A DNA stretch of 64,000 nt from Dromaius novaehollandiae. Its lineage: Eukaryota; Chordata; Aves; Casuariiformes; Dromaiidae. The position numbers were made by a program, and so were the translations under genes. Below the pieces are notes generated by a model. It did not search any database. It was not told where the DNA came from and saw only the letters and a program-made list of their open reading frames with translations. Within the stretch, counting starts at the first letter, position 1. Each line of letters starts with the position of its first letter. Where the stretch lies: NCBI RefSeq assembly GCF_036370855.1, contig NC_088113.1:20170501-20234500 (forward strand). The letters run 5' to 3'. Below are positions 1,028 to 29,705 of this stretch, in pieces.

Positions 1028-1129
1028 GTGAACCGGATTGGGGAACTGATCTGGGTTTAAAAATAACTTTTTTTTTTTTTAATAAACTAGTTTATTTTTA
1101 ACGTGTATCAGTTCCGGTCTCCAGTTCAC
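1028..1129. repeat. 102-bp imperfect palindrome, MITE-like
   Basis: The left arm (from gtgaaccgg through gggaactgat to taaaaataa) and the reverse complement of the right arm (gtgaactgg through ggaactgata to taaaaataaa) align over about 40 bases, separated by a T-rich centre. Such a structure fits a small non-autonomous DNA transposon or another foldback element. I cannot name a family, and I see no clear target-site duplication. Confidence 0.55.
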
Positions 1130-1339
1130 CTCACAACTATACATATGGTCTTGGTACAACTGAGGGAGTAGCAGGGGAAGGCATAGGAGCATTTGGGGTG
1201 GGGGAAGAAGTTGCTAATGTCGGCACCTAGTCCCTGTAAACAAAATGTTGTTTGCCAACATGCTAAAAGTTATCCAACATTAGTGTGAAGCAGACCCTAA
1301 ACAACCACCCCAGATGCCTGCGTTCATCACAAGGAGATA

Positions 1340-1850
1340 CCGAGGCAATGTCATTTGCTGCGTTCATTAGCAGCCTGGACGATGGGCTGGAGCGTACCCT
1401 CGGTAAGCTCTGGGACGACACCAAACTGCGAGGAGCGATCTGCCCGAGGGCACTGTTGCCAGGAGCAGCATGAGTTCAACGAAGACAAAAGTAAAGGCGT
1501 GCGGGTGGGACAGGATAACCCCGTGCACCAGTGTAGGTTGGCAGCCAACTAGCACGAAAGCAGCTTTGCAGAGAATGCGTTCTGGGGGATAGCAAGCCGA
1601 ACGTGAGTCTCGCGGCAGCAAAGGCCAACCGCATCCTGGGCTGCATTATTAGGAGCACAGCTGAATGTCAGGGGAACCAAGATCACCTTTGGAGTACTAG
1701 GTCCAGTTTTGAGATCCCCAGTACAAGCTCGAACAAGCCCAGCAGAGAGCATCAAGATGGGCTAGAGGGTGTTGTGTATGAGTTGAGGCTGAGAGAGCTT
1801 GCTTTGTTAAGCCTGAAAAAGAGAAGTAGGGGAAGGGGGGGGGGTGTCTT
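1340..1850 (+). mobile_element. CR1 LINE fragment (reverse transcriptase 3' part)
   Basis: The translation around 1365-1440 (SSLDDGLERTLGKLWDDTKL) matches the YLDD-to-ADDTKL region of CR1-type reverse transcriptases, with the ADD motif decayed to WDD. Downstream DNA keeps CR1 landmarks: an AAGGCCAACxGCATCCTGG-like stretch near 1620 and a CTGAGAGAGCTTGCTTTGTTAAGCCTG-type block near 1790. Stops and frameshifts show it is dead. CR1 is the dominant LINE of birds and reptiles, which supports the organism call. The boundaries are approximate. Confidence 0.75.
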
Positions 1851-4800
1851 TCTAGGTGTGAGTAGAGTGTAAGATTATCTAGTGTTCCTTTAGTTAGCTC
1901 CAGATAGTTGGATCATGCTGTCACCCCTAGCTTTGGTGAGTGTCCACAAAATGCAAGCAGCCGAAGACTTTGGCTGGATTTTGGTGCTGGTGGACATAAT
2001 CTCAGGTGGAAAGGACATTAGTGAAAACGGCAAGACAACGGCTCCATTCTGCTGAAGCTGCTAAAGGTTTAAGTTGCTGCGGGTACATGTACCGGAGCTG
2101 TGCCGTGGGGTAAGCTGTACAGAAAGGATAGAGACACTTTTCAGGGCAGGGAGGTATTAGGAAGTCCAAAGAGCGGCTTGGGATCATCGTTATCTTTGGA
2201 GATTGCAGGGAGAGGGACCTGTAAAGATGTGATGAGTTCATTCCAGGTGCTGAGCAGTGATAACCTAGTTCAGAGAGGCATGCCTGGAGAAACAGCTAAT
2301 GCTTTATGGAAAAGCACTAAATTCAAGGAGAGTTGAGGACAGATTTGGAAGGCTTCCTAAAAGCCTTTCTACATTTCCCAGGGTGATAAAGAGAACTTAC
2401 AGAAACTGGCCTAAAGCTTTGGCTGTAAACAATAAGCTAAATACTGTTGCAGTCCTTTCAAGGACTACTGTATTTGCTGGCTGACTTCCTCCACCTCTCT
2501 GGTGCTGGAGTCGCTTTGATTTGGTAGGCAGTTGTCAGGCGGCCTCGTCCCCCTGCAAGCTCCGAAGGCTGAGGGAGAAACAGTGCCGCTTTGTGCTTCC
2601 GCCAAGCGGAAAGGGACTTTGAAATGGAGATGACAGACGACTTAGATTTCCTTTTACCTTGGGACTGTAATGAAAAGAACAATATTTAGGAATAGTGACC
2701 TAGCAAAGCATTCCCGTTAGTTCTTGGGGAAGGGTTTGTTTCTGCTTTCAATGTTCCAACATGTGTGACTTCTATTCCCACCCTTCTCCTGGATCAATGG
2801 GATTAATCCTCTCTACAGATTTGTAGAAAATACTCAATTTTGAATAGCAGAGAGCAGGAATAAAAATTGAAGTAGAAAAAAACTAGGAAAGAGAAGAATA
2901 GCAATGACAAATATCACTGGGGATATGCTCAGAAGACAAAAATACAATACAGACAAGAAATAAGTGGCGTCAGAAGCAGACACTGCGGAGATAGTTTGGT
3001 AATGTGTGAGTGTAAGCTGTAGCAAGGCAACATGAATGAAGCGGTGAAAAGAAATTCAACAAAAATTTATTCTGTGCCTTAAAGAAAGGAATTACTTTAT
3101 GTACTCGAATGAATTCCCCCTTTAAAATGGAGGAGCTATTTCCTTGAGCTAGGTGGTCTTTCTGAGGTGGCACATGTGTTTTTCAGTCATTCAGCTAGGT
3201 TTAATGCTTTTGCTGATGGTTTTCTCCTGGATATTGGGAAATAGTTTATAAAGTTTAATGTTTCATTCACATATTTTTAGTAAGTTGCGTCACCTTTATT
3301 TTTGTCATAGCTCTTCCCAAAGGGCTGGTAGTCATGACTTCTTCATTTTTGAATAGTACAACTTCTTTTTTTTTTTTTTTTTTAAAGGAAATTGGAACTT
3401 GTTATCGACAATGACCTTGATACCGATACGCTATAGTTGACTGAAGTGGGTTTTAAACACATATGTATTCTATTACAGATACAGCTCCCACGGTAGAATT
3501 AAATTTTTCATTTATTTGTTTCACTCTTTGTGAGCATTGTGGTTTCTGATCTTGTTCTTTTTATTGCAGCAATAAATTTTAATCTTAAGCCAGACTGTTT
3601 TGAAACTCTGAGTACATGATGAATCCTTGGGAAAGATTATTTAGATGGGATAACCTATCTCAGGCTAAAGAAATGCGACTAGTAGCCCAACAGCCTCGAT
3701 GACTCTTCTGCAATGTGCCCTCAGCCACACTGATCACTAACACTATCCTGGAGCCTTTTTTTTTTCTTTTAATATGATCCAAAACTGTCTATCTGTTTAT
3801 TATCAAGTTGCATGACTGCCTTGGTCTTGCTCAGGGGTTTTGGTCCCCGAAGGGCTGTCCGTGTGTACCTGCCACGCTCATGGCTTCCCGCGGAAAGTGG
3901 TTCGCTAGTAACACGGAGCTGTGTTTTGAGACTCCTTAAGACAGCAGTGACTAGACGTAAATTTTTTTGTCTTAGTCTCCATTTCTGGTGTAAAATCTCT
4001 TGTATTGGTGTTGTATCTGTAACATTGCATCTTTGAAATGGCCCTTGAATATCTGAATGATTTTTCAACAGAAAGTATTACTTTGTCTCTCTAATTAGCA
4101 GTACAAGCACAAATTAAATACTTAGGTCCCTGTATTTGTTTTGTTTTTCTGATGTCTGGGTTTGTGACATCTGTTTACATGACTTTCAAATTAAGTCTTC
4201 ATGTGAAATCTTTTTTATGATAGTAGTGGCATGCCTGCTGCTAAGTGGGGTCCCTAATCTGGATTAGGGCTTCACATAATGTAGCAAAGACAGCGCGTGC
4301 CCCGTCTCTCCCAGCTCCCTGGCCGAGCAGGTATGCAGGTCACTTTTATTTTGCCCCAGCGTAAATTCCTGCACCTTTGGGGCGTCGCGTTGCTCCCCTG
4401 CCGAACGGCACCAGGCTGGTTCTTGTTTGCGGGCCTGCTGCAGGCTGCCTGGGTGGTGCGAGGGGCTGCGATCGCTCCTGCTCAGTCCGGAGAAGGGGCT
4501 TGTAGTTGGGCTTCCTATAGTCCTTTTATATGAGGCTTTCATGTGTAAATAAGAACTTTACTATGTAAATGTTGCTTTCGCAGTTTCAGGGATGCATGGC
4601 AAATACTGTTGCCAAAACTGTAAAAATAGGCTCTGTGTTTTATTAAAAAACTTCATTCATCTGAGTGAACAAACTAATAAAGATTTTCTAAAGCTTCAGT
4701 GTTTTTGAAAGCAGGCTGGTGTAATAAAATAACTGCAAAATAATTATTTACTAAAGAGACTAATGAGCTCAGTTTTTTTGAGCAGCATTAATTCCACATT

Positions 4801-5329
4801 TAACTTGCTGCACTGATCGGGATTTCCTGTGAATGGTGCCTGGAATCCATACAATAAAGGGGATTGTCTCAGTGGTGTGAAAAATGAATAATCTAAGATT
4901 TAGATGACTATTTCAGGCTTGCCACACGACCGATTGCCTTGAATAATTACAAAATAGCTCATTTACTGAAACTTGGTTTACATACTTTTGGAGCACTCTG
5001 ATAAACAATTTAGATTATGGGCAGTAATGGATACTTTTGATTCATGTAGTTCTTTGCCTAAATCTTGCTAAAGAAATTGCATCCTAGAGAAAAGAGAGAA
5101 GTGGTTTTGGAGGCTCCGTGAAGAGGAACTTCAGGCATTTTTGGGTTTTGGTGTACTGAGAGTATTTTGGTAATTATGTGACTAAGTGGATATTTATTTT
5201 GCCTTAATGTGTATTTGATTAGGTTACTTCAGCTATAAATATTTCAAGCTCTAAAGCCTCTGTTTCACTGTCTCTAATCTTGGCTTTTGAGGAACATTTA
5301 ATGTCTTGTTGTGGTTACAATTAATCTGC

Positions 5330-5610
5330 ATGTGTTTTAGCAATTAGTGTTTATGTGCAGCAGGCAGCAGCAGATTCTGGCAACTGTCAATCAGCGCCTG
5401 TAACCGGCTCTGAAAGCAGAAGCGAGGAAACGCAAGGTGATTTACTGCCCAGCTTTTTGGCAACGCCGTTTTGTTGACAAACACCCGCTCTGGCCTGGAT
5501 TATTCGCCATGTTTTGCAGAGTAGATGGGGAGAAGCAGAGGAATAGCAGCATTAGCATTGCTTTCTGTTTGATAAAGCTGCTTGATAAATCACCCTTTTA
5601 ATGGGCTAGG
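5330..5610. promoter_or_regulatory. Candidate intronic cis-regulatory block
   Basis: This is a stretch of mixed composition inside the AT-rich intron. It is dense in recognisable homeodomain and zinc-finger motifs: TGTCAATCA (PBX/MEIS type), GGATTA (bicoid/OTX type), TTGATAAAG and TTGATAAATC (GATA/TCF-like). It resembles a conserved noncoding element by look only. No alignment was possible, so this is a weak inference. Confidence 0.2.
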
Positions 5611-6159
5611 ATTTCCTTTCTTCACTGCCTCTTGGAACAGCTGTTGTGTCTTTTAAACGCTCATAATTTCCCTTTATACGGAAGTGTTCGTTTTTAAAGC
5701 AAACTTCAATATCTTTTTAAAAAGATACTGATACCTGCTAGCTGTTTGCACTGTAATAGAAGTGTGACAAAATATGTAAAAATTCAAAGCAATTAAAATG
5801 TTCTTCTGCTTGGCTAAGATTTAATAAAACTGATAAGATTACACAAACAAAACACAGATGGAGGAGGGCAAATGACTTCAAAGAGAGAACATCTCTGATG
5901 GTTCATGTCACTGCTGCTATCGTGTCTGTAGTCTCCAACCTTGAATATTGCCTCGGTCTCCCAAGCAGGGGAGTACTCCTTGCTAATGATCCTTGTTTTC
6001 CTTGCTGTTTGCTTTAGGCTTCTCCTTTTTTTAAAGGAGGTAGAGTAAGTTAAAAGCAAGCTGTAATGAACTTCTGTATATGCAGTAAAGTACAATTTAG
6101 TAAAGTAAATCTGAATGTGTTAAGGAATTTAAAATGCTTTGCACTTGGGGCTAGGAGAT

Positions 6160-6290
6160 GCACCGAGTCTGATAGGGCTCCGCTGGCACGCCAGACACCC
6201 TGAGCAGGTCGCTTCGTCTGTTGTGGCTGTTACCGTCTGCAAAATGGAGATGAAAGTAATGATCTTCCTTCAGCAGTTTTTCAGGTTAGA
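6160..6290 (+). mobile_element. MIR-type SINE (sense)
   Basis: The order of a CCTGAGCAGGTCGCTT segment followed by GTCTGCAAAATGGAGATGA and TAATGATC matches the MIR consensus (ctTGGGCAAGTcactt, then tctGTAAAATGGgGATaAtaa). This core is shared by ancient amniote SINEs. The ends are approximate. Confidence 0.65.
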
Positions 6291-7079
6291 GCAGAAAGGC
6301 ACTGTATTAGCGTCCTCGTTAGCCTTTTTAATAAGGCTGTACAAATTGGTGTTTTGCCCTGGTTTTGAAGCTTCTGAGCGGTACAAGGCGGTGTGAGTGT
6401 GCGATCCTTCCTTCCTTCCTTCCCTCCCTGCTAATGAGTTCTGGTGCCGCGCTGCTGAGAAGCCTCCGCGTAGAAATCGGTGCTTGTCGCTGCGTGGTGC
6501 GTAGGCAACACCTGAATTCCTTGCGCTGAGAATCGGTGCAAGATGTATTAATGGATGCAGCTAAGTGGTAATTTTGTACACATGCCCCCACTATGAACTC
6601 TAATAGCCGCCTTTTGCATTAAGGGGATTTTAAAGTATTTTGACCTCTGAGGGAATAAAGGGTTAAAGATCTGAAAAACTGCATCTTTTTCTGTCTGATC
6701 ATTCATTATCAGTGCCTTCTCATGGGATTTGGCTGTGTTTCCTCTCCATCTTGGACAGTACACATGCTACAAAGGCAATCGTTTGTTGGGAAGCTTTAGC
6801 CATTTTAGCCATGTACGTGATTGAGTTTTGAAATATTTGGCTGTATTTTGCTTCTGCATGTTCCTGGCTAGTTAATTTTAGTTTATGTGTGCTTTATAAA
6901 TGGAGTAACAACCCTTGGAGGGTGGGGGGGTGGGGTGGGTGATTCTTCTGAAGAGTAGAGATACGGATACAAATCACTTTACTTTAGATAAAAATACACA
7001 TATTACTTTAGACTGTAAGAGAATCAAAGTTCATACCAAGAGAGACTCTTCTCTTAGGCCTTCCAAAAATTGCAAAAAT

Positions 7080-7117
7080 ACATTACATACATACATACAT
7101 ACGTATATACATACATG
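7080..7117. repeat. (ATAC)n microsatellite
   Basis: A run of ATAC/CATA tetramers with one interruption. A short (CTTC/CCTT)n run also occurs at about 6407-6428 in the same intron. Confidence 0.85.
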
Positions 7118-7856
7118 TGAACCCCTACAAAACTGAGAAGGCTACAACAAGGGGTGCCGGGGAGGAATTACCTTGTTGCAGTCTTCTGGGTTTTGTATGG
7201 CTTCACTAACTGGTGTTTTTTGTTAATAGTCCGTTATGCTTTATGCACTTTCTCAGCAGCTTCCCATCGCAACTTGGGTAATCTGACTTTTACAGTGTGT
7301 TGCTTCTATGTAAAATCTACCCTCTGGGATATGCTGAGAACAAGTGGTTAGTGCGTACTTTTTTTTAAATAAATGCCTCCAAGAAATTTATACTAGTTAT
7401 CAGTCCACTGTAATAAGCAGTTTATTACTGGATTTTTTTTTTAAACCTTCATCATGAGGAAGAAACGAAAGTATGAAAATTTTGGACTATCAGAGTAAAG
7501 TTATAGAAAAACAGAATTTAAATGTTTGAAAGTGATTTCAGTACTTTCAGCTATCCTAAAGTCTTAATGCAGGTAGCCATTGGGGTTCCTGTAGTAGTTA
7601 AAAATGAGTAAATACGTTTATATATATATAAATTTCAGTTATTGGTTGGGGTTTTGTATACATCTCTCTGCCTGGGAGAGGGCCCGAAAGGCCAAGCTCG
7701 CCTCGGTTTTTTTGGAAAGGGGGTGGGAGGGAACGGAAGATAACCAAGCGGTGCCAAGGCGGCCGTGCCTTTCCCGTGCTCGCTTAGGCAGGCGCGTGGA
7801 TGTGCCCGGCCTCGGCCCTTCGCGCGGGGTCTCTGACGGCGTCTGTCTTCGCGCAG

Positions 7857-8138
7857 GTGCCGACGCGGCGGCCGCCGAGCCCAGCAGCTCCGACAGCCAC
7901 GTGGAGCGGTCCGACCTCTACGCCGGCGTGGACGACGCGCTCCTGGGGGGCGAAGCGAGCTACCTCTCCCAGCCGCTGACGCCGGAGAAGGAGGACGCGC
8001 TGCAGGCTGCCACGGTCGCCAACCTGCGGGCCGCGCTCATGAGTAAGAACAGTTTGCTGTCTCTGAAAGCTGACATGCTGGGAGAGGATAGTTCTCTGCT
8101 GTTTGAGTACTTACCCAAAGGCACGCATTCGCTATCTC
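7857..8138 (+). CDS. ZBTB46: ZBTB46 exon A (linker before the zinc fingers)
   Basis: This is an internal exon of 282 nt bounded by gcgcag at 7851-7856 and gtaagt at 8139. It starts and ends in phase 1, so it is frame-symmetric. The peptide contains SSSDSHVERSDLYAGVDD, GGEASYLSQPLTPEKED, an ATVANLRAALMSKNSLL segment and ends LFEYLPKGTHSLS. This matches, from memory of the family, the part of ZBTB46 just before its fingers. ZBTB46 is a BTB/POZ zinc-finger transcription factor, a nuclear repressor best known from classical dendritic cells and endothelium. The BTB domain is outside the window. The donor at 8139 is phase-compatible with two acceptors, 14059 (alternative end) and 23844 (canonical end), so this exon is probably the branch point of alternative splicing. 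Confidence 0.93.
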
Positions 8139-11100
8139 GTAAGTGTGTGTTTTTATATTTTTGCTTACTGATGCTTTAAGTGAAACCTTTAGTGAGAAGA
8201 AAAGAAAATACAGGTCATCTCCTGGTGTGTTGCTACCTAACTGTTTAAGTCCAGTTTTACGTTCTGCTTAATCACACTTCTCATAAAGTTTGGAAACCTG
8301 TACCTGTTATTGATACCACCTTAATGTCAACTTCTGAAACGGTAAATGAAAGTATGTCGTACATATATGTAGCACTTATCGCCAAATTTCTGTTTTACCT
8401 GTTTGCAAAATGGTATTTGCAAGCCACCCTTCGAGTCCTCCAGTTTAAAAAGCAGCTCCAAAGGTTTTGTATCCAAGACTGACTAATGTTAAACTGGAGG
8501 GGGGTGACCGTGGCTTGAGCGGTGCTCCTGTGTTCTTAAAACCGGTTATGATTTTGTGGATCACGTGATCTTTACTTTTTGATGTTTACTTTTAGACCCC
8601 ATCTCTAAGTAATGAACAGGTATGGCTTTGTTATACTTGTGCTTGGAAATAAGTATTTATTTCACTGCTGGCGATCTGCTGGACACAGCTGTTATGTACC
8701 AGTACGTGCGGATAGCCTGTTTTTCAGCGTACTTGCACATCCTCTTCATTGTGATTGTAAAGTAGTTTGATTCTGTGGTGCACAAAAAAGCCCTGTAAAT
8801 GTTGCATTTGAATAATACTTTCAAAGACGGGAACATGAATACACGGGACAGTTTGTGACATAATTTAGAACAGATTTCTGAGTATTCCATGTCCGTTTCC
8901 AGCCAAAAAGGTTTAATCTAAGAGATATGCTCAATTAAATAGGGTGAAAAGTTTACTTAAGGTATCTATTATTTTGTTTTTATTTCCTTTGATGGCAAAA
9001 AATAGATTATGCTTTAACTTAATGGTCACTCAGATTTTATGACAAGTAAAGGGAAATAACTGCACAGCCTAATGTCAGTCTTGGTGTCTCTTTTCCCTTC
9101 CCATATCTTAACAGTGGATTTTTTTTTAATCTGTCTGATTTAGAAAAAAAGCAATGGTTTTGTACCTTCTTCTGCCACTTAAATATTGGGGAGGAGAGGG
9201 AGTTGTGAAAGCAACGCTCTTGTTTCCACAGTAGTTTGCTTATCGAATAATCTCCAGTTAAATCAGATTTAGATGGTTCAAACTAAGCTAAGGAAATCCC
9301 TTCATTGCAATGAAATAGCCAAGATCCTCTGTAGCCGTCTAATCACCAGGCTTGGGTGCCAGAAAAAGGGTGTCCCCGGCACCTGGGTGGCGGGTGGTAC
9401 GGGGCAGCCTGCGGCTGGGGACGTGATTTATGCACGGTGTGGTGGAACCTCTGGTTCATGACTGATGACATTAGTGGCTTCATCTTCTGTCATGATAAAC
9501 TGGAATAATGATTGGACTGCACTCTATCCATCATCTTTGTCTTGGTTTGGGGATTTTGGATTTTACTTGTGAGCTGAAGGACCACTTGGCATAAAGACAA
9601 ATGAGTAGAAACCGGTCATAAATTAAAGCTAGGAATTAGAGGGTGTCTAACCAGCTGAGAAATGAAGTCCTGAAACGGGCATGGTGTAGGCAAAAGACCA
9701 GCTAGGTTTAAAATGAAGATTGATAAATTTATAAATGGAGGTAAATGATAGATCGTGAATGGATGTGATGACTCAGGAGTTCCCTTCTGGTCTATATCTG
9801 AGGTCCCCGTTTTCCTGTCCTTTCACTATTGTATGAATTTCATTCAGCTAAGCTCCAGTCACCTCATCTTTATGGAAAAGGGAATTACTTGAGACAAATT
9901 TGGCTATTTGGTCTGTGGATTTCACAGCAGGTAAGGGGATGCAGCTGTGGCCGATAAGGGAATTCTTCTACAGAAGAAGTGGGCAGTTGAGGACCGAATT
10001 TTGTCTTCACCTTATTCAGAGTCAGAGGTTTTTGTTTACTTTAATATAAGACTCATGTGTTTTGGGGTCACTATTAAATAAACAAGGACAAGGAGTTTAA
10101 TAGAAATTTTCAGTGAACAAAATGAGGGTAAAGCAAGTGATACAATTCTGGAGATCTGGAAACGCTGCCTAGGTTGGTGCTAGCTTTGTAGGGGTTTTTC
10201 ACTTCTACAAACACAATTTGAGGATGTTGAGTCATTTTAACTCCTGGGTTGTAATAATAAAAGGGGGGGTAGGGCAGGAGCACAGTAAACAAGATTCCTT
10301 TTTGAAAACCAGACGGAGCAGCGTGGTGGTTCTCATTTGCCTGATGTGAGAAGGAAATGTGCTGATTTAAAGAATTAGAAGTGAACATTTGCTCTGAGTT
10401 TAAAAAACATAAGATGTACTTTAATCTTAACTGCAACCTCTGGATAGTTTTCATATTTTCTTTTGAACTAGTACAGTAAGTAACTGACTCAGTGGCAGCA
10501 TTAACATTTATTTTTCTTTTCCGGAGTGAGACTTGGTTGAGGTGAGAGATCAGAAGAACGTGTTGGGCATGTTTGAAATCCCGCCGGGCCGTTTCTAAAG
10601 GGGGTATAACTCTCAAGGTTACCGTGTACGTTCCGAGTTTTAATTTTTCATATTGTTGTAAAAGTTAATAGAGGTTACCCCAAGGTTTTCATTTTACCTC
10701 ATGCTCTTTTTTCTAATTCGCTGTATATTGTAATGATAACGTGAGGTGTGAAATTACTTAACATTCAGTTAATGGAAAACAGAGCACAGAGTGGTATTTT
10801 TTCCATGAATATCACTTTATTACTCTGATACAGTGAAACATGCGTACAGTATTTTTAAAGTTAACCAATTCAAAGCAATTTAAAACCAGAAGGGAAAACT
10901 GAAATGTCTGGTCATTCGGGTGATATGGTTACAGATAACCTGCAGCTAGGTGGTTTGAGGCTTAACATAATGCCGTGGCGTATGGTGAAGACTGACTTGC
11001 TTAATGCACTGGTTGGAAATCTGAAGAACACGTGTTTTGCAGAAAAAGGATGTGTCAGTGACTTGTGGGTAATACTGATTTCTCCTTGGGTGTCACTAGT

Positions 11101-14058
11101 TACTGAACCTGCATCACTTCTTGCTGTAGGTGCCTTTCAGATGAGACTCAGAGGTTCAGTTTTCCTTGCCTTTACACGTGTTCCCGGGTTGTCCGTAAGG
11201 GCAGGTTGTTTGCCGGTTCCCAGCTTCGGCGGTGCTATTGTACTGAGTCGCTTTGTTGTTTAACAATGTGCATTTTATTTATGGTACTGAACTTTGGTAG
11301 CATTGTTATCTGCAGTTGCACCACACTTATAAAATTCTCAAAGGTTTTTTAGGTGAACAGTTTTTAGCTGTTTTTGCCAAGTATAAGCAAGAGAATGGGA
11401 ACATTAATACTCATTAAAAATGAGTTGGCTAATTTACATCCTTCTTTTTTTAAATGTGAAAACAAGTCAAAAAGTTTTCAGATTTGGGGGTGATTGACTA
11501 CCTGCAAGAGTGAGTCCTTTCACGTTTTCAGAATAGCACGTTGCATACTTCTTTATATGTCTAAGTTTGGCTTTTCCTGTTTACCCTGTTGCAACTGGAA
11601 CTGTTTATAGAAGCAATTCCTATGAAGCTTGTTGTCCAAGTGATTGCATGGTACACAGAGCCCTTTTCTTTTGGGCAAACCAGCTAATATTTTCTTTTTA
11701 GTTAGCAGTTCACTGAAGCCAATAATTCGTACTTGCACTAGGTGTTAAAGGAATACGTTTACCCAGCGGTCAGTTCTCCCAAGTGGGAGTTAAAGGTATT
11801 CGATTTGGCATGGAATTTCGGTACATGGTAAATGAAGATTTAGGGGAGAACGGTTGTCATTTTAAACAAGATATAATAACCTTTGCCCTTCTGTTTGTTT
11901 TCGACAATAGTTTATTGTTGAGCTGTCAGTTCTCTGAACAATAGCGAATGCTATAGTCATATAGATAACCGCTAAACCAATGCATCTTGTTCCATATGCG
12001 AAGCTGACTGAAGGAAAGCGCCTTTAATTTCTGATCAAAAAGTTAAAATATTTTTCATTAAAGACAAACACAAATTTAGGAGGAAAAAAGAGGTTGTTCA
12101 CCATACTAGTCAGAATGAGACAAAACCTAAATTCAGATGCTGTTTGCGTTCTTGCATACAAACTATGGATCACCATGTGGTTTCTCTTCTTGTGATACTT
12201 GCAGTTGTTGAAACCCAATAAATATTTATTATTGTTTTAAAATTCATGTTTGTACCTTTTTGTTGTGTTGTATATCTTCCTGGCTCATTTTGAACGACTG
12301 AGTTTGTTTCTCCTTATTCTATTTCATTGCTCATTCATTAACTTTAACTTTTGTTTTAAGAAGTGTGTAGTTTCTTAGGAACCTGTGTAACTTTGTAAAG
12401 GTGCTAATAAAGAATTAATAAAGCCAGACTACTGGCTTGTCTTTACTGTATGCTGAAATACAGGTTGTTTAAGGAAATGCAACCCAGAGCTTCCTCTAAG
12501 TTGCCCGAAGTCAGTGCATGGCTCCAACATAAATAGCACAGTTTGAATAATTTTGTGAGATTCAGAAAAACAGTGACATTTTTGGATGGCTAGATAGGAA
12601 TTTTGCTATCAACCTAGAAAGCTATAACCCTAGTAACACTTTCTAACTGGAAATACTGATGAATTCAGTCTTTTTTCCCATTGTTTCCTATCTCAGCTTA
12701 TGGGGTTTCGGCATTTTGTTGCCCTCCCCTTAAATTATAATAGCAAAATATGAGCAGCACCAGAAAGAAGGCTTCCGTATTGTTATCATGCTTGAATAGA
12801 TTTAACTAAGTTGTGCAAGGCTTCAATCTGTGATCAAAGCAGAGGAAAGCAGATCAAACATCCAGCCTGTGGTACACGAGTAGAATTTCCTTTGATAGCT
12901 GATAAAAAGCTAGGTTTGGGGTAGTTCCTATTTAGAAACCTGCATGCAGTTTGACTTGAATGCTTTGTTGTGACCCAGATCACAGTGTGCTGTGCTGGGA
13001 TGCAGTATAAACTCTGTGTGACTTGTCATTTGTAACTGCATTAAAGAGTGTTTTTTGTATGCATAAAAGTTTCAGTCATACCCTTTTGTAGGAGGAGTAA
13101 AAAGCCTTTAGGACATAGAGTGCTTTAAGTATGATCTTGTTTAGTTTTACTTGTTATAATTTATATGAGCCTACAATATTTGCTTCTGATTTTGCCTGCC
13201 TTCTTCCCAAAAATAATGACCTGCTCGATACTTCATTCCAATATGTAGTCGATGCCAAGGTGCAGTCAGTGTGTGTTAAGGTTTAATTAACAATTTGTAA
13301 TGTATAGAAACTAGCCTTGCTCACAGTCTTTATTTGTATATAGATTTGTCACTGATTATCAGCATATTTGGGGGAATATTGTATACCATTTGGCTGCTGC
13401 TGCAGAGTAAGGAAAAGGTTGTGATTCTGCTTCGGTCTGACAAATAATTTGTTTTCCCCTTTTTTTAACTGCAAGAGATTTTTAGACTGTAATGGCTGTC
13501 AGGTATAACGGAATAGTTTTGTACAAATCTTTCAACTTCCAAGCCTATAAAATCAGAGTAATACATTTTTTCCATCTTTTGTAAAGCACTTTGAGATCAA
13601 GGAATAACAGTTCTGTATCAAATAAAACACAAAAGTCAAGTCTTGGGTTTGAAAGCTTTAAATTTTAAAGAAGTTTAGTACTAGAATAAAGTTTCTTGTA
13701 TATATGTTACTTGAAAATTTACATGTGTGTATTTGAAACGGTGCTTCTCAAAGAAGTGTCTTTCAGACCTGTGATTGCTCCGGATGTTTGTGCTGCGTTG
13801 TGCTCCTCTCTCCCGCCGTGCCATGCGACCTGACTCCGCCACCCACATCGCACGCAGACAAGGCGTTTTGGGTGGGGAGGCCGGTTTAAAAAACAAGCAG
13901 ACAAACAAAAAAAGCCTGGCATCCCTGTACTGCTGCCTCCCCTCCCACTGACAGAAGATAAGCTGCGAGTGCTCATTCACTGCCTGTTCGAGGCCTTTTT
14001 TAAAACCGGCAGCTGGTGCTAGTTCACGTGGGTGAGATTCGTTTCCTGTGTTCCCCAG
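8139..14058 (+). other. ZBTB46: ZBTB46 intron between exon A and exon B
   Basis: This is AT-rich intron sequence with no supported coding exon. The longest open frames (10110-10616 on - and 10904-11263 on +) lack domains, a codon signal or splice context. A MIR-type SINE lies near its 3' end. For the canonical transcript this stretch is part of one 15.7-kb intron (8139-23843). Confidence 0.7.
13540..13645 (+). mobile_element. MIR-type SINE tail (amniote form)
   Basis: CTATAAAATCAGAGTAATA is followed by TTTGTAAAGCACTTTGAGATC. This is the 3' half of the amniote MIR consensus (tgTAAAATggGgataata ... TGTAAAGCgCTTTGAGATC). It lies about 400 bp upstream of exon B. Confidence 0.6.
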
Positions 14059-14231
14059 GGCCTGGCACCAACTTGAGTCGTTCAAGGGGCGAATGTGATG
14101 GCAAAGTGGAAGCACCATCTCCCCCGCTGCCTTCAGCACACCTTGCCACTCAGAGCCCCCCCGCGGTCTGCTCTTCTGGTGAAATGTCACCAGAAACCCT
14201 GATAAAAGGAGAGAGGCCTTCCTCAGCCCAG
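14059..14231 (+). CDS. ZBTB46: ZBTB46 alternative exon B (linker)
   Basis: This exon of 173 nt lies between a pyrimidine-rich acceptor (tgttccccag, ending 14058) and donor gtaagc at 14232. It enters in phase 1, exactly the phase left by exon A's donor (C|GG gives Arg), and leaves in phase 0. The peptide is Ser/Pro-rich: RPGTNLSRSRGECD, then VEAPSPPLPSAHLATQ, then GEMSPETLIKGERPSSAQ. It has no domain and looks like a flexible spacer. Its end phase does not allow splicing to canonical exon E, so it must go on to exon C. I do not recognise it from published ZBTB46 proteins. The evidence is splice-site quality plus phase continuity across four junctions. Confidence 0.72.
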
Positions 14232-15404
14232 GTAAGCTCGTGGGGGGGAAATGCACACTCACTTAAATGTACAGGGACCTGCTTAATCAAGTTCTTCCCA
14301 ATTGGGAGTACTCTGAAAGACCATTGTATCATATATTTTGATCTCTTGGCTAATTTTTTAAAATATAGGTTATTTTTAAACCTGAAAATCTGTTGAGGTC
14401 AGAGCTGGCATTGTCTTAATTTTACCCTTTTCTTCCTTACCTCAACAGAACTTGCATTCAGAAAATGGTTTTTTTTTTTTTTAAGTATACATGTCTTTTA
14501 TTGTAAATCCATTAGTTTGCAAAACCTTATATGTAAGATATTACTAATGGCATGAAGGTATCCAAGCACCCAGCTGTCTAGTGCTTATTTTTGGTGTTTT
14601 GGATTTGGGTTTTTTTGAGCTATGTAGGTATGGATAGAGGCAGACTGATTTTCTGCGTTATAGGAGTTAGACATAAAATCCATTGCTTTCTGTAGCATTT
14701 CTTATTTGTAGTATTTTGAGTAAGACTTTATCCCCATTAAACAAATGGATGAAAACACAGATTTTGCTTTGCGGTCACCTTAGAGAAAAATGAGATGGTA
14801 AGAGCTGCTAATAGCCACTTCCCCGGTCTGACAGAGCTGCCCAGACTGCATCGTGTGCTCGACCTCATGGAGGGTTGCCATCTGCCGCACTCTGGCATAT
14901 TGCAAATGGTTTATGAAAAAAATCAGCTTTTATTTATAATTTGATTCAGCAATGCCAGAGAGCATTGCGTAAAGGGAACTGAGCAGAACGTACATTGTTT
15001 TCTATGGGCTTTGCTCTGTGGAGAGAAGTATCTTTCGTAGGGCTAAGGGAAAATTTTCTAATTTTGTGGCATCTGCTAGAAATTTTCTATCCCATGTTTC
15101 CCACTGGCTTGAGTGGGAGCTACAAGTGCTTAGTGACACTGAAAACTGAGTACTGTTACCAAGGACCTAGATAGGAGTGTTGATTACTTGTCTTTAGGCA
15201 TCAAATCTTGCAGAATATGGCCTAAGTAACTAAGCTTTGTTAACAGCGAAAATTTTGCAAAGACGAATAGCATTGCCAAGTCTAACGATGGACCTCCCTT
15301 AAACAAGGGGTGAGGGTATTGGTGAGATAGGAGTCTGAGCATTAGCTGCAAAGACGTGTTCTTGTAAATGCTTGCCTTAACTTAAGTACGCTTTTCATTT
15401 GCAG

Positions 15405-15456
15405 GCCACTTACAATGGATTTTTAACACTTTGGCAGTTTGATAACTCCGACTCAG
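15405..15456 (+). CDS. ZBTB46: ZBTB46 alternative exon C (52-nt mini-exon)
   Basis: This short exon lies between tttcatttgcag and a perfect donor, CAG|GTAAGT-like, at 15457. It enters in phase 0 (as exon B leaves) and exits in phase 1. It encodes ATYNGFLTLWQFDNSDS, 17 residues with no known motif, whose aromatic residues suggest a conserved short peptide rather than random reading. Its phase-1 exit fits exon D (G|AT, Asp). It would also fit canonical exon E (G|TC, Val), so a hybrid transcript that inserts exons B and C before the canonical fingers is formally possible. Confidence 0.68.
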
Positions 15457-15546
15457 GTAAGTAGAGTTAAAAATAGTTTTTTAGTTATTGTTGTTTTATA
15501 CCAGAAGACATTGATTTGTACGTGTGTATGTGTATTTCTGTTTTAG

Positions 15547-16100
15547 ATTTAAGTTTTTCAAGATCTGAAGACATGGACTTAACCAATGATGGCCTATTCC
15601 TAGACTCAGCCCTAACCAAGAGACTGGTTTGTGGTTTCTGCAGGAGGGTTTTCGAGTGTGCTGACCAGCTGAAGGAACACGTCCTCGAGCACGCGTTGTC
15701 CGTGATTCTCCCGTTTGACTTCGCCGACTGTCCCCGGCCGGGCCTCGCGGACGGCGTGCCCCCCGGCCAGCTCGCTCGCTTCCAGTGCTCCAAATGCCCT
15801 GCGAGCTTCACCCTGAAGTCGAACATGGATCGGCACAAGAAGACAATCCACTTCAACTGTAAGAAGATGCAGTGTCCGAACTGTGCCAAGCTCTTTCGAG
15901 ACAAGACAGACTTAAACCGGCACCTTATGTCTGTGCACTCCAGCGAGCGTACTTTTGTGTGTCTCTCTTGCGGCAAGGGCTTTGGTACCCAGAAGAACCT
16001 CACGAACCATATGAAAGTGTGTTCCCCAGGCTCTGCCCCGCTGGGAGGGTTTGAGCTTTTGGATAGCGTGGAACAAAATCAGGATCCTGAGGATGTGTAG
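15547..16100 (+). CDS. ZBTB46: ZBTB46 alternative terminal exon D: four zinc fingers
   Basis: The acceptor tatttctgttttag ends at 15546 and the stop TAG is at 16098-16100. The 184-residue reading has four fingers. Finger 1 (about 15627-15692) begins LVCGFC and is C-X2-C-X12-H-X3-H. Finger 2 (about 15780-15851, FQCSKC) and finger 3 (about 15867-15941, MQCPNC) have H-X4-H endings. Finger 4 (about 15955-16020, FVCLSC) ends H-X3-C, so it is C2HC. A SSERTF linker joins fingers 3 and 4. Helix positions -1 to 6 differ from those of the canonical fingers (for example LKSNMDR and DKTDLNR against RREHMKR), so a different DNA target is expected. A 25-residue acidic leader precedes finger 1, and the tail ends QNQDPEDV. 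Phase continuity from exon A argues for an alternative end of ZBTB46. A separate decayed or nested finger gene is the other possibility. Confidence 0.78.
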
Positions 16101-16174
16101 CTACTGTTGTGTATGTTAGGGGTTTATTTCTTTTAACTAGGAAAACAAAGTTGTGTCATTGTTTTCCTACTGCA

Positions 16175-16180
16175 AATAAA
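16175..16180 (+). terminator. Intronic poly(A) signal AATAAA after exon D
   Basis: A canonical hexamer 75 nt after the exon D stop codon would give a short 3'UTR and close the alternative transcript about 7.7 kb upstream of the canonical zinc-finger exon. Confidence 0.6.
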
Positions 16181-16383
16181 CTTGCCACAGGTGTAATGTA
16201 ACGTAGTAACTCCCAAATGCTGATCAGGTTGATAACGCACAGGTTCCAGATACTGTATAACTAATAATTGCAACCATGGTGCAATGTTTGTGTAAAGATA
16301 CTTTGGTCAATCCATATAATGGCACTTTGGATATTTTATTGTATGGTAATACTGTGTACTTACTGCCTTAAACTTTTTTATCA

Positions 16384-16560
16384 GTAGATCTCAAAGTGCT
16401 TTATAAAAGAAATGGGGTGTTTTCCCGTGTTGAAAGGGAAAATAACGTACCAAATCTTGCGAGCGTGTTAGCAGTAGGATCGGTAATAGGCTTCAGTTGT
16501 CTGAGTTCTGGTCTAGTGCTCTGTCCATTAGGCAGCTCAGTCACTGCAGGGTTGTTTCAG
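16384..16560 (-). mobile_element. MIR-type SINE (antisense), amniote form
   Basis: On the + strand it starts GATCTCAAAGTGCTTTATAAA and ends near TCTGGTCTAGTGCTCTGTCC and ATTAGGCAG. This is the reverse complement of the MIR tail followed by its tRNA-like head. Both ends of the consensus are present, so the copy is nearly full length. It sits about 200 bp past the alternative poly(A) signal. Confidence 0.75.
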
Positions 16561-18040
16561 GAAGCTGTGAGGCGCTGGGTTGCTCAGCACCATAAGATGT
16601 TTATGAAGGCTGGTTTTCTATGTCACTTAAAGGGCGGGGGAACATGCATCTTTGCATTTGTGCAACAGGGGGTATATTATTTGGGCTTTCAAAATTGTTG
16701 CAAGGTGTGTATATTTTATTACTTGGTATTATCTTTGAATATGTTAGGACTTTTTAAAATATACTTGAGTATGGCTGTGACTTTCAGGAGTTCGCTACAT
16801 TTTCTGACTCTAGTTTGTTTTAAGTGATGTATTAAGTTGGCCAAACTGTAAATGTATGCTGTTGAAATGGAAAGAAGGGGCTATACTGTGAGCTATGGTG
16901 CGCGTAGAAAATCAGTCATGGTTGTTGCTGGAAGGTTGAAGACTTACCTTAATGCCTATTACATTACTTTTTTTTTTTTTTAAGAGATTAAGTACTTATA
17001 TGCGCCTCTTGCTATATATTTATACACAAAGCCAGATTATAGTAACTGTTAAATGAAAGTCGCGTAATTGAAAGTCTGCTGCGTACAGCCCGGCTGGTCA
17101 GCAGTTTGAGCTTTAGTGTTGTGTGTCGTAGGGTTGCTTTCCTTAACAAGCAAGGCACAACTAGAAAAAACAGAGCAACTTGCAAATAATCTTTTGACTC
17201 CTTAAGAAAGAAGTTACTTCTCTTGTAATATAGTTGCATCTCAGGGAGACAAAAATGAGAAATACTTAATCACGCACAGAAGGGACTTAAACAGCCTGAG
17301 GTCTTCAGTGGAGACTTTCTTGCAAAGTTGTTTTCTGTGGAAAGCCAGAGGAGAAAGATCTGTCGTTTCTTTCTGCCCTGTATTCTTGTTATAGCGGGAA
17401 TAGGTGTATTCTGGCATAGTGCTGCTCCACCCGTTCCTGCTGAAATTTGGAGCTTCATTGCCTCAGGGCAGGGTTTCTGAGCATTGGGAAGCTGGTGTTT
17501 CCCTGTTTGGCTTAGTTCTCACACTTCATTTAAGCTAGGTATAATCAGAGTTGAGAATATGTTTCTATATAACCACACTTCAGTCAATTTTTTGGTGAAG
17601 TTATGCAAATTTTTTTGTTCCCATAGACTTCCTTGTCATTGTCAATCACAGGTACCTGTGAATATGTCTAGTTTCCAATCCTTATAAGGATTATGAGTAA
17701 TTTGCTTTTGAATACGAAGCAGGTGAAGTAGGAAAAAGCTGAGCCAGAAGAGAGAGTTGTGACCAAAATGTGTCTTATCTGGAAGTCTGGGAGGAGCACA
17801 CTAGATTTTTTTTTCCCTGCCTTAGAAGAGTAAGACACCAGCAAAAGTAATTGCAGCAATTTTTAAAAGACTCCATTCACATGGCAGTTGCTATCAGCAT
17901 ATTTCATGTTTGTTCATTTTTTTTCTCACATGGAAATTTTTGTCCCATTATTATATCAGCCATGCATCTGACTTCTCTAATGTATTCACTGGACAAAAGA
18001 TAATATTAAAATCTAGTCACCATCATAATAGCAGACATGA

Positions 18041-18058
18041 TGGGACATATATGTCCCA
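18041..18058. repeat. 18-bp perfect palindrome
   Basis: TGGGACATATATGTCCCA is its own reverse complement. It consists of two GGGACA half-sites in inverted orientation separated by four bases. It may be a protein-binding site or chance. Confidence 0.6.
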
Positions 18059-21000
18059 GTATTGACATATGTGCTCATGAAAGACCATATTTAACCATTT
18101 CAACAGTTTTCTAATTAAAATTTTCAACAGAATCAAGTATTTTGAGGTTCATATGTCACTGCATATGAAAGCACTCGTATAACTTGAGAATTTAATTCAA
18201 CATTAAACTATTTTCCTGTAGTCAGATAAACTTATTCTCTTTCTAGTAGAGGTTTAAGTAGTGTTTTACTTTCTCCATAGCATCAAATTGCTTTCCTGAC
18301 TTCAGTGCTGGGTTTTTCCGGAGCAGATTTTTTAAAATATTAAAACCAAAGGGTAAAGTATAACAGAGGCTTACAGAGTTTGCATTTTTTTTTAATAGTA
18401 TATGCACGTTAGAAAGTGGTGTGGGAAGATGATGGAAATTGTAAATTTGACTGTTAAATTGCATCTTGCTATTTACAACCTTAAAATATAATGAGGAATA
18501 AGTAGACAAAAATTGTCTTAAAGCTAGTTTGTGAATTCTTCATAATAAGCAAATGAGTGTAGTATTTCAGTGATTACTGCATGATTACTGGTTTACAGAG
18601 TAAATACAGAGTAGCTCTGTCAGGCAGTAAATCAATCACTAGTGCTTTCACTCCTCTCACGTCAGGAATATGGGAACCTGTTTCATTTAACACCCCTTGT
18701 CCTGAAGGAAGTTTTGTCACTGTCTTCTGCCACCTGGAAGCTTTGTTGCATGCCTGTCTGTACTTCCACCTGCAAACTCAGGCTGTTGTAATACTTCATG
18801 GAAAAGAGCCGGTTTGTCTCCGTTTGTCCCCTCGTCACTGCCTCGTCACTGCCTCTTAGCATCGCCAGCGGGAACTGTTCGGGATTCAGAGCTCTAGATG
18901 GTGCAGGCAGCATTCGGGGAGCTAGTGGCGTCGGTGAAACCATTTCTGGGGGTGTCTTCCCTGCCTTTCTCCTGCTTCGACTGTGCAGGTTGTCAAATGC
19001 TCGGTTTTGTTTCTGTTCTCGTGGGATTGCAGGAAAGGGGAGGAACCAGAGCCTAAGGTCTGAGTTGTGGCATTTTCGGTCTTCTACCGGGGCTTTTCTC
19101 TCGTTAAGACGTATTGCAAAGTGCTGAGCTTTCCTCCCGCTCCAGGACCTCCTTGCTCCAGAGGCAGCTGGTTTGCAGGTTGTCCGGCTCATCTTGCAAG
19201 CGGGGTCCAAAAGCCAAAGGTTGAGTTACCAAATGTAGGCAGTCCACGTGCCGTGGGAGGGAGGAGAGAGAAAATGAGGGTGTAGGGAGTTGAGCCGGAG
19301 GTTCGATCTGATTCCTCTGTAATAGTAACGCTTCCAATTGCACTGCTAGAATATGGCATTTTTAAGACAAGATATTACACTAAAAGGTTTTCTTTCTGAC
19401 CTATGGAAATTAAAAATTGCATAGTTTTAAAATATTTTGGGGGAAAGTATACAGAGTATAGATTTTTTTCACCAAAATTCTGCCACCCAAGCTTAGCAAA
19501 TGTCTTGGTTTATGTTTTGCTTTCTCTGATTCAGAGGAATTTGTGTATGATCTCCATCAGAGGTTGATAGACCAGGTTTTTTATTATTATATTTTTGCAG
19601 TTTATTCATATTTTTTAAAAAGCTTCATTCAAAGGTGATGGACAGTAAATGCATTTCCAAAACCATATAGTGTTTAAACTACTTGTTACATTTTTAAATG
19701 AGGAAAGAGTGGTAACTTTATTACTTAAGAAAAATATTAGAACATAAAAACCAAGAAAAATTAACCTCAGTGAAATAAGTAGTTACTTGAGTAGACAACA
19801 CCAAAGGCTGCTTTTTCAAGCATTGTTGGGTTGATTTAAAAAATGCACATAATTTGTAAATATTTTAATGAAATTAAGTACGTAGATTTTTACTGTGGCA
19901 CTGTTTGTATTATATTCTCCATTTCTTGGTGCTGTTCTTCATATAGTGCTGTCCAATAGCTAGTTATCTATGGTGCTACTGTTAATGGTCTTGGTGATCT
20001 TGTTAAAGATTATTTCTTTAGACCTTAATGCTGCTATACTTAAGCTCTATAAAATATTAATACGAGCCTTTTTATGTAGGGCCAATAGTTTGTACATTTT
20101 AACTTTGTCATTTAGACAAAAAATTATGCCTATACCAAAGTTGGTATGTTGCTCATTAAATATATGTGCATGCAGGCATATATATTTAACAGTACTGTGA
20201 AAATGTTAACTGCAATACTTTTTTTTTTTATCTACAATGCTGTAATTTTTCAGGTGTTGACTTTTGTAGATACAAAAATCAAACATATGGCTATTTGGTG
20301 AAAGAGTTTTCAATAAAACTATAACTGCAAAAAAAGTTCTGTGACTATTTTTAAATGTAAGCGCACTGGAAGCTGAAAATGTTATTCTCTGGTGATTTAA
20401 GATGAATACCAGCAAAAGTATGCGTGAGGGATATTGTAATCAGGAATTGTTATGAATATGTTGTTAGAAACAGATTTTCAATCTGTTTGACCTTAAGGCT
20501 TTCATCTCCCTTGATAAATAGAAATAATTAAAATGGTATGATGGATTAGTAACTCTTCTTTGAAAATATACAAACGTGGGCTTTTTTGTCCAGGTTAGAT
20601 ATGCAAATACACACCTTATCAGCGTGAGCATGCCCTGATTATGCATCTAAAGTGGGATAAATACTTACAAATCTAGAGAACTGCGTGTGTGCGAAAGCAG
20701 CTTGTTAATGATGCGGGTTCTTGCACCTAATGTCTGAAGTTGCCTTTTGAGCTTCTGCGCTAGCTCAGACGTGCAAGCTGAAGGGATCAGTAATGGACAG
20801 TGAACGGTGGAAAGCACGTGGTCATTTAGGAAATGACAGCGTCAGGTACCATCTGGTGATACAGGAAATGAAGTATTTTGTAGCATTCTCGTCTCTAAAG
20901 CACTTTTGTTTCGTAACATTGGGACCTAGTTGCTGTGTTGCTCCGTGGCAGATTTTGGGGAGCGAGGTGGTTAACGTGGCTTCCGGAGCAGCTCGGCTCT

Positions 21001-23843
21001 GCTCGCCGTGCCCTCCGCCCGGGCCCGGTGTATGTCGTGGAAAGGACCTTGGGCTGGAGGAAGGGGGTTATGTGACCCCTGTTGACTTCACTTGATCAGC
21101 TTATAGCTTGCTTACCTTGTCTAGACGACGCAGTAATAGGTTTACGGTGATCCTGGGGAATACAGATGTTTTGGCTGTATGGCCTACTGCTAATACCCAA
21201 GCAGCTACAAGATCAGACTGGAAACATTTATCATAAATAGCTTTGTGTCATGAAACTGAAACTTGCTGAGGATTTTCCTGTAGGAGAAAGTGGGCTCCTT
21301 GCCTCAGATTGTGTAGACCAGGGTGGTGTGTCATATCCAAAGGAGAAGATGCAGCAAAAAATGTTTTTCCTGTAATTTAAGTTTTCCCAGGAAGGGAGCA
21401 AATACAAGAGAGAAGGCCTTTTCATATTCTAGTTGTTTCAACAAAATCTTGTAAGTAAGAAGTTGGATATGTGGTGGGACTGTGCAGACGAGCTGAGCTG
21501 TTGTTACGCGGCAGCAAAAGCTGGCACAAAGCCCTGGATGCTAGAGTCTCCGTTCCTGCCTGGAACCTGCACGCTGAAGCGTCATCTTGGAGCTTCCCAA
21601 AGCGGCACGAGTGTGGGTGCACGTTATCGCGTTAAACCAGCCTTTTAAAATGCCACTTGATTGCAGGAAGTAATCTTTACTGACAGGTGGATAAAATATT
21701 CTTAGCTTTCACTATTACTGTCATCGCTATTGCAGCCATGATCCAGGTGAGTGAGTGAGATTTTCTTCCCCCTCATTTTGGGCTAGAAAATTCTCATGGC
21801 TGCTTTACAGACACGCTTTAGGCATCTGTAGGAAGCAGTACCACAGCTGTTGAGCAGCCCAGAGGGGCAATTTAGGAGTAAAGAATATTAGATCCAAACA
21901 AACTGCTGATCCAAGGGGATATTTTTTCAGTTACCTGCGTGGCGGCTTTTTTTCCTTGTAAGTAACCAGAAGAAATGCTAAGACAAAATTCATATCATGA
22001 CAACTTTTAAGATTTTGAACCATGCTTTTATTCTGTCTTAGAAAAAAAAAATTTCTAAGCAAACTTTAAGATGATCTTGTGTTGAAACCTTTGTTCTGAT
22101 TTAAAAGGTGGTGGATGTGAATTCTCATTAAAATGTTGGCTGCGGTAACAAAGCACCTTCCGGCACAGTTCTGTAGGACTTTTTTCCAGCATTGGCTTAG
22201 AGAGAAGATTCCTCCCAGTAAGGGGAAGAGGATTTCCACTTCCTGTGGAATTCTGTTTTATTTATTCCCCTGGCCAAATACTGAACATGCGAAGCTTGCT
22301 CAGCTTTTGAAACCTTGTAAAATAGTGTGTTTTCTCTTTATATTGGAAGCAGCATAGCTCTTTATCTCCTGCCTGGATTTCCTGGTGGAAAAAAGAACAA
22401 ATGGTCAGTTAAAGAGTGACATTTCTAACACTATATCCTCCTCTAGTGAAGACGTCTTTGGCTATGTCCTGCCAGCTTTATAGTATCAGCAGCGTCATGA
22501 TGTAGTTTTCACTGGTTTTACATGAGAGTCAAATGTAGTTGTTCTTCACATTGTTTTCATCTGCATTGCAAATATAAGACAAAGTAAATTTTCAAAACAG
22601 AAGGAAAAAAAAGCCCACAAATTGGGTATTAAATAACACCGAATGCAGAGACATGCTGAGTTTAAAAAAGGGGGGAGAGGGCTTTTTTTTTAAATAGCTC
22701 TTTTTTTCAGAATACAGTTCAACTCCCCAGGGCATTATCTGTGGTATACCGAGAATATGCGGCATGCATTCAGCCAGTAGGGCTTTTCTAGGAAATAACA
22801 TTTGAATATGTATCTAAAGATATTGCAAAGTATTCAGTATGTCAGAAACCTATAGTAGGTATGGCATTTCCCTTATTCCCTTCACTCTCTTACATACACT
22901 GTTTCATGTACCAGAAGAAGCCATTTACATATACAATACCATATTTAAGAGATTAACCAGAATTTGCTTTCTTTTTTTTTTCTCCTTGTTATGTAAACAG
23001 TACATTGCTTTGAGAAATGACAATAATTAGGACAGAAGTGGGTGAAAATTAACATATTAATGGAAAGAAATAGAATTATAGAAGGTGGAGATAAAAATTA
23101 TATCCACGTGGACAGTCATTTCCAAATTTATAGTGGGTGGATTTCCTTAGGGAATAGCAAATACTCTATTTTCACCTGCCATATTTTGCATATTGCACTT
23201 TCATTTTGTTTGGAGGAGGAAATACCAACACAGCTGCTATGCGCATTCTTCTGGCAAATTAGACCCTTGGGCTGTCAATACTGCACGTATCCCTTGAGTC
23301 TGCTTTCAGTGCACTTCCAAAGAGATGACATGAAGAAAAGACTCAAAAATGTCAGAATGACTTCAGATAATTCATCATCTTCCAGTCCGGCAAAATATGA
23401 TTAAAAAGAAAAGTCCATGAAGGACTGTGCAGTTGAATTGAAGCGTGACCCTCACAAGCCTCCTTAAGACTCAGTGTTTTGCACCTTTCTGTATTTCTCT
23501 GCCCATGCCATAGCGGTATTTAGGCTAATTCATTATAGTAAATTAACATAGCAGATTGTCAGCTGCCTTTATTTCCTCTTTAAAAAGTATTAGACAATGT
23601 GTGTTGATGGCTGTTGCTTAATGTTTGTGTACTGGCTTTTCCAAAAGTTTCTCTGATGAAGGTACTCGAAGTTCTTAGCTTTAATCATGTCGTATGAGTA
23701 CATGGATTAAAAAAGGTTTAGATGGTTACGAGGTGAGAATATACTTTCACAGTGAAATAATTGAATAGTGAGATACTGAGCAGGGAGGCTGACCGTGCTG
23801 GGGTGTTCTGCGAGTAACCTCTGTTTTGCTTGCTCTCTTGCAG

Positions 23844-24019
23844 TCAACGAGTTCACGGTGATCAGAAAGAAGTTCAAGTGCCCCTACTGCAGTTTTTCAG
23901 CCATGCACCAGTGCATCCTGAAGAGACACATGCGATCCCACACGGGAGAAAGGCCCTACCCGTGCGAAATCTGCGGGAAGAAGTTCACGCGCCGCGAGCA
24001 CATGAAGCGGCACACCTTG
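23844..24019 (+). CDS. ZBTB46: ZBTB46 exon E: canonical zinc fingers 1 and 2
   Basis: The acceptor cttgcag ends at 23843 and the donor gtaagg starts at 24020. The exon enters in phase 1, completing the Leu codon started by exon A (SLS-L-NEFTV), and leaves in phase 0. It encodes [15 protein letters not shown] and the first C2H2 finger, a classical linker (HTGERPYPC), and a second finger with recognition helix RREHMKR ending HTLV into exon F. This matches the human protein closely from memory. The two fingers form the sequence-specific DNA-binding unit of the repressor. Skipping this exon and the next in favour of exons B to D would replace the whole DNA-binding domain. Confidence 0.95.
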
Positions 24020-29318: not shown

Positions 29319-29705
29319 GTCCACAGCAAAGATAAAAAATACGTGTGCAAAGTTTGCAATCGAGTGTTCATGTCTGCGGCCAGCGTGGGAATCAAGCACG
29401 GCTCTCGCCGCCACGGGGTCTGTGCCGATTGCTCCGGCCGCGGCATGGCCGGTCACTTGGATCATAACGGCGGCGAAGGGTCTCCGGATGAGCTGTATCC
29501 TGGCGAAGGCCAGTACATGGAAGACCCAGATGACATCAAAGTGGAGGGAGACGAAGAGATGGGAGACGACGACGACATAAAGTGGAAAGATGACGTAGGG
29601 ATATCACAAGATGATGTGATTTTAGATGACGACAAAGATGTCGACTCTCCGCAGGAGCAGGAGAACTCTGGGGAGAACGACAAGGATTTTACCTGGATTT
29701 CTTAG
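29319..29705 (+). CDS. ZBTB46: ZBTB46 exon F: last canonical exon with acidic tail
   Basis: The exon starts after tttcccag (ending 29318) in phase 0 and stops at TAG 29703-29705, coding 128 residues. It opens VHSKDKKYVCKVCNRVF, which completes finger 2 and gives a third, degenerate C2H2-like unit ending SRRHGVC. Then comes a Gly/acidic tail with runs of Asp/Glu (GDEEMGDDDD, ILDDDKDVD) and the terminus DKDFTWIS, close to the human ending. An IKVE motif in the tail fits the SUMO consensus (hydrophobic-K-x-E), which would suit a repressor. This part is absent from the predicted exon B-C-D isoform. Confidence 0.95.
   Translation, partial: VHSKDKKYVCKVCNRVFMSAASVGIKHGSRRHGVCADCSGRGMAGHLDHNGGEGSPDELYPGEGQYMEDPDDIKVEGDEEMGDDDDIKWKDDVGISQDDVILDDDKDVDSPQEQENSGENDKDFTWIS

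Follow-up and report, generated by a model that had tools for sequence, protein, structure and literature searches.

The Drosophila BTB-zinc-finger gene lola produces at least 20 isoforms that have a BTB-containing front in common but vary in their last exon, which in most cases encodes fingers (PMC1947980). Within the vertebrates, a change of fingers linked to polyadenylation is already known in this gene family: intronic poly(A) isoforms of PATZ1 in human cells are predicted to carry four or five of its seven fingers (PMC5928244), and four splice variants of the same gene, some with distinct C-termini, have been described and are credited with four to six fingers (PMC5751127). ZBTB46, a regulator of dendritic cells, belongs to the same kind of gene. 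In humans its fingers are encoded in exon 4, and there is a circular RNA composed of exons 2 and 3 (PMC13421333); the gene is also among those giving the most abundant scrambled-exon transcripts (PMC3270023). Among immune cells ZBTB46 is described as specific to classical dendritic cells (PMC6600524). Unlike in mice, chicken single-cell work places it in putative plasmacytoid dendritic cells (PMC10634274).

Here we analyse a 64,000-nt stretch of the Dromaius novaehollandiae genome (the window), in which an intron of a gene that is very probably ZBTB46 holds a chain of three predicted exons (B, C and D) that ends in a second zinc-finger array. Its likeness to lola lies in the shared front that fits different last exons; it differs in that the ends of lola number about 20 (PMC1947980), with trans-splicing also in use, whereas ZBTB46 would have two ends and belongs to a vertebrate. 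With PATZ1 it would share its membership of the vertebrate BTB-zinc-finger genes and a poly(A)-linked change of fingers (PMC5928244); however, PATZ1 loses or alters part of one array, whereas the D array of ZBTB46 is a separate, dissimilar array that would replace the usual one. The canonical exons (A, E and F) fit the layout of human exons 2–5, with the fingers in exon 4, but an alternative finger end goes unmentioned for the human gene in the available part of that report (PMC13421333).

Results

Identity of the gene

The features of the locus are collected in Table 1. Exons A and E were open and joined in phase, and F added a third finger motif, an acidic tail and a stop, as expected of one transcript unit. 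The fingers and acidic tail of E and F read as those of ZBTB46. The neighbours of ZBTB46 at human 20q13.33 are SLC2A4RG, LIME1 and ZGPAT. In the window, minus-strand ORFs at 37203-38107 resemble SLC2A4RG and a minus-strand ORF at 49742-50743 resembles LIME1, both without a Pfam match. A G-patch domain in the minus-strand ORF 58963-59418 (Pfam E 6.1e-05, above the cut-off) fits ZGPAT, and the ZGPAT-like minus-strand ORFs reach position 63859. The sequence of the fingers and tail, the order of the neighbours and the G-patch neighbour make it very probable that the gene is ZBTB46. The identity proposed in the initial annotation of this DNA is supported by the sequence of the fingers and tail and, for the part of the neighbourhood that was tested, agrees with the G-patch domain.

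ZBTB10 was also considered. Its chains 8gn3 and 8gn4 matched exon E, but many other finger proteins did so too, and the comparison was not decisive; the exon A peptide together with the start of E returned no matches at 1e-6. No BTB domain is present in the window, where the plus-strand open stretches in 1-7597 are at most 111 aa long; it would be encoded by an exon further upstream. Since the human fingers are in exon 4, exon A would correspond by order to human exon 3, an exon whose splicing is variable in humans too, given the scrambled-exon transcripts and the exon 2-3 circular RNA (PMC3270023, PMC13421333). Elsewhere in the window, a pyrimidine-rich tract of about 1.2 kb (34719-35895) consists of C and T runs on the plus strand, and several minisatellite arrays lie within 44602-51373 in the GC-rich gene block (e.g. 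46517-47177 and 49855-50443), some of them within long open frames. An end pattern of the CR1 repeat was sought in the window and proved absent.

Table 1. Features of the ZBTB46 locus, numbered from the first letter of the window
Feature	Position	Strand	Description	Basis
Exon A	7857..8138	+	282 nt; coding exon before the finger exon; ends in phase 1	translation, splice dinucleotides
Exon B	14059..14231	+	173 nt; peptide rich in Ser and Pro, resembling a linker; starts in phase 1, ends in phase 0	
Exon C	15405..15456	+	52 nt; 17 residues; phase 0 to phase 1; perfect CAG/GTAAGT donor	
C-D intron	15457..15546	+	90 nt; AT-rich; UG-rich tract adjoins the weak D acceptor	
Exon D, coding part	15547..16100	+	about 183 residues; stop TAG at 16098-16100	
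Four fingers of D	15630-15692, 15786-15851, 15873-15938, 15960-16022	+		pattern scan, Pfam
Predicted poly(A) signal following D	16175..16180	+	AATAAA, 75 nt 3′ of the stop	
Canonical finger exon E	23844..24019	+	encodes two fingers; starts in phase 1, as B does; by order, equivalent to human exon 4	
Canonical last exon F	29319..29705	+	third finger-like motif, acidic tail, stop	

Layout and reading frame of the exon chain

When exons A, B, C and D were joined, a single open frame of 352 residues was obtained that ran from linker sequence to the TAG stop of exon D, with GT/AG at all junctions and junction phases of 1, 0 and 1. The initial annotation had B, C and D joining A and each other in phase and ending in a stop with an AATAAA 75 nt further on, and both statements proved correct. 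Exon A joins the canonical exon E in the same phase as it joins B, and it also joins D directly in phase 1, as B and C together amount to 225 nt; B and C could therefore be optional. One front thus fits each finger end, as in genes of the lola/fruitless type, and the D end is, by its sequence, a terminal one, with its own stop and predicted poly(A) signal. Since AATAAA occurs nine times in the 15.7-kb intron, the position of the copy that follows D is suggestive only. Within B there is a strong alternative in-phase acceptor at 14137, 78 nt downstream of the first, which would make B 26 residues shorter (14137-14231, summed acceptor and donor score 22.7).

No second copy of 13700-16400 was found within the window, none of the tandem repeats listed for the window falls in that interval, and Rfam gave no matches in the window at the gathering score.

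Splice-site strength and tests against chance

Scores for the splice sites came from a generic matrix, and the sites were ranked within the intron 8139-23843, which contains 1064 AG and 1044 GT dinucleotides. On this scale, the acceptor of B ranked 2nd and its donor 4th, while the acceptor of C ranked 9th and its donor 1st; the canonical acceptor of E came 5th. The acceptor of D was weak (82nd of 1064), as was the donor of exon A (score 5.9). The strong acceptors and donors ascribed to the chain are thus those of B and C, the description failing for the acceptor of D. The summed acceptor and donor scores of B (23.9) and C (22.3) exceed those of exon A (14.9) and the canonical exon E (18.9). 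Among the plus-strand exon candidates of 30-250 nt in the 15.7-kb intron, no more than three scored at least 18, namely B, its shorter version and C, and each of them is open in one frame only, the one needed by the chain.

These properties bear on whether exon D might belong to a separate small zinc-finger gene lying in the intron, with a promoter near 13.8 kb, B in its first exons and the BTB front unused. A CpG-richer block directly before B (13800-13999; GC 0.56, o/e 0.64) could serve as such a promoter, and in-frame ATG codons are present within B and where D begins. We nevertheless regard a separate gene as unlikely: the block is short, B is open solely in the frame demanded by A, and the second-best acceptor of the whole intron would be of no use to a first exon. 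On the minus strand, a 193-residue open frame (13681-14262) lies opposite exon B and the CpG-richer block.

The strength of the chain was compared with that arising in 2,000 simulated introns (order-3 Markov sequences of 7.4 kb, the distance from A to D). An exon as strong as B and open in the needed frame appeared in six of them, and an in-phase pair as strong as B plus C in none (best 42.9, versus 46.15 for the real pair); any in-phase pair with both scores of at least 17 was found in 89. In an earlier simulation of 300 introns there was no exon as strong as B and no such pair, and a candidate of the strength of C, open or not, was present in 7%. Five of six real control stretches contained no open candidates scoring at least 20 (the minus strand of intron 8139-23843, both strands of 1-7856 and both strands of the E-F intron). 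The remaining one, the plus strand of 29706-34000, beyond exon F, contained a single candidate (30377-30447, summed score 20.5). Closed candidates in the control stretches scored up to 22.6.

Taken one at a time, some elements of the chain are unremarkable. The perfect donor motif has an expectation of 0.49 in the window and was present in 38 of 100 shuffles, and AATAAA is not rare in the intron either. Together with the frequency of candidates as strong as C in the smaller simulation, this is what could be said for the chain being an artefact of chance open frames and chance splice sites. Such an origin is barely credible, given that the in-phase combination was seen in none of the 2,000 simulated introns and that the zinc-finger content of D, as recognised by Pfam, is non-random. 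The sequence anatomy of the A-B-C-D chain exceeds chance.

Fingers and coding character of exon D

A pattern scan of exon D recognised three C2H2 motifs and one C2HC motif. With the joined A-B-C-D peptide, Pfam returned zf-C2H2_4 (E 2.7e-15, four stretches) and zf-C2H2 (E 6.3e-15, three stretches), which confirms the earlier count of four C2H2/C2HC fingers. The contact residues at positions -1/2/3/6, predicted by finger rules, were CDQE, LSNR, DTDR and TKNN for the D fingers, and HCIR and REHR for the canonical ones, the third canonical motif being atypical. No D finger had all four predicted contacts identical to those of any canonical finger, the Arg at position 6 being common to two D and two canonical fingers. 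Since the contact sets of D match no canonical set, its targets should differ from those of the canonical array, a prediction that follows the same rules.

Exon D and exons E-F showed generic finger similarity only (at best 36% over 55 residues), and the reading of D as a copy of the canonical fingers was rejected. Nor is D an alternative end that retains the canonical fingers, as in PATZ1, since it precedes E and has its own stop. A named relative of D was sought as well, but the matches in the Protein Data Bank were generic finger arrays, such as ZNF568, PRDM9 and CTCF, among the best 60 of 182, and NCBIfam gave two bacterial matches only, far below their cut-offs. No relatives of D were found in the viral_contigs and genome_contigs collections, in which a vertebrate gene would not be expected, as neither is a vertebrate collection.

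Of 4,000 composition shuffles, 2 left the 183-codon frame of D open. The frames of B and C were open in 14% and 37% of shuffles, respectively, so the argument from the reading frame depends on D together with the splice sites. The GC3 of D was 0.67, while B and C were without coding-like codon-position bias (in B, GC3 was 0.49, below a GC2 of 0.65). All 16 zinc ligands of D are intact. When neutral decay of D was simulated (substitutions only, with no insertions or deletions; 4,000 runs per level), the frame stayed open with the 16 ligands kept in 24% of the runs at 3% change, 8% at 5%, 1.7% at 8% and 0.3% at 12%. Neutral decay would therefore soon break D, which points to an exon that is either kept by selection or of recent origin.

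This behaviour is relevant to the idea that the chain has no function, being either a relic made up of former exons or a lineage-specific end that is seldom used and amounts to an isoform at noise level. Such an idea would accommodate the weak acceptor of D, the lack of coding-like bias in B and C, and the failure to find relatives of D in the two collections searched, neither of them vertebrate. It is distinctly unlikely, however, in view of a frame that is open across four exons with every zinc ligand kept, of the speed at which simulated decay breaks D, and of the strong splice sites of B and C.

Part of D might instead be an internal cassette that is added to the canonical fingers. The donor at 15858, inside D, carries one base (phase 1), as E requires, so that D fingers 1-2 could be spliced to E in phase; its score (4.97) is close to that of the exon A donor. 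This use of D appears very unlikely: the donor is weak, and D would lose its last two fingers, which are intact, together with the stop. It is compatible with the reading of D as part of an alternative end, and both could occur.

Discussion

The results are best explained if B-C-D is an alternative last-exon chain of ZBTB46 by which one finger array is exchanged for another downstream of a common BTB front, much as in the insect gene lola, and we consider this probable. The initial annotation had proposed one front with two DNA-binding ends; that proposal stands as regards the alternative chain, which is in phase, and its terminal exon, which has a stop and a predicted poly(A) signal, and DNA binding by the D fingers is predicted. 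Once the locus is transcribed, exon A would be spliced to B, or straight to D, and the transcript cleaved after the AATAAA at 16175. On translation, the resulting D form would keep the BTB domain and the linker and have the four-finger D array as its C-terminal end. When D is skipped, A would join E-F, giving the usual fingers and the acidic tail; the two ends would be mutually exclusive. The choice of end may be regulated, as the donor of A and the acceptor of D are both weak and the short C-D intron contains a UG-rich tract.

The D form would drop the acidic tail and, since the human nuclear localisation signal sits in exon 4 (PMC13421333), it would be without that signal too. Because the BTB domain would be common to both forms, each could pair with itself or with the other, and the same partners might be taken to different DNA sites. 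The arrangement may also be conserved in relatives.

How far this is new for vertebrates has to be worded with care. The claim of novelty that accompanied the first description of the chain is softened by the intronic poly(A) isoforms of PATZ1, yet it keeps its force in one respect, in that the isoforms described in the available parts of those reports involve no swap to an unrelated array (PMC5928244, PMC5751127). What would be new, then, is not a poly(A)-linked finger change in a vertebrate BTB-zinc-finger gene but the replacement of a whole array by an unrelated one. No alternative finger end was reported among the titles and abstract starts listed for ZBTB46 and its aliases, and no vertebrate swap to a different finger array was found among the literature matches listed, although gene-model databases may already list a predicted isoform. 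A census of chicken C2H2 genes kept one isoform per gene, so the D form could escape notice there; ZBTB46 is unnamed in the main text of that report, as far as it was available (PMC11476951).

More tentatively, and with some reserve, ZBTB46 may be a two-headed factor in this vertebrate lineage and perhaps in others, with a regulated choice of last exon exchanging one complete finger array for an unrelated one behind a common BTB domain, a vertebrate counterpart of lola or fruitless. If a second DNA-binding end exists, part of the function of ZBTB46 in such species would be missed by knock-outs and lists of targets that rely on the canonical finger exons, and reporters or probes placed at the 3′ end would give a false picture of its expression. 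The swapping of whole arrays, known from insects, would then also occur in a vertebrate BTB-zinc-finger gene.
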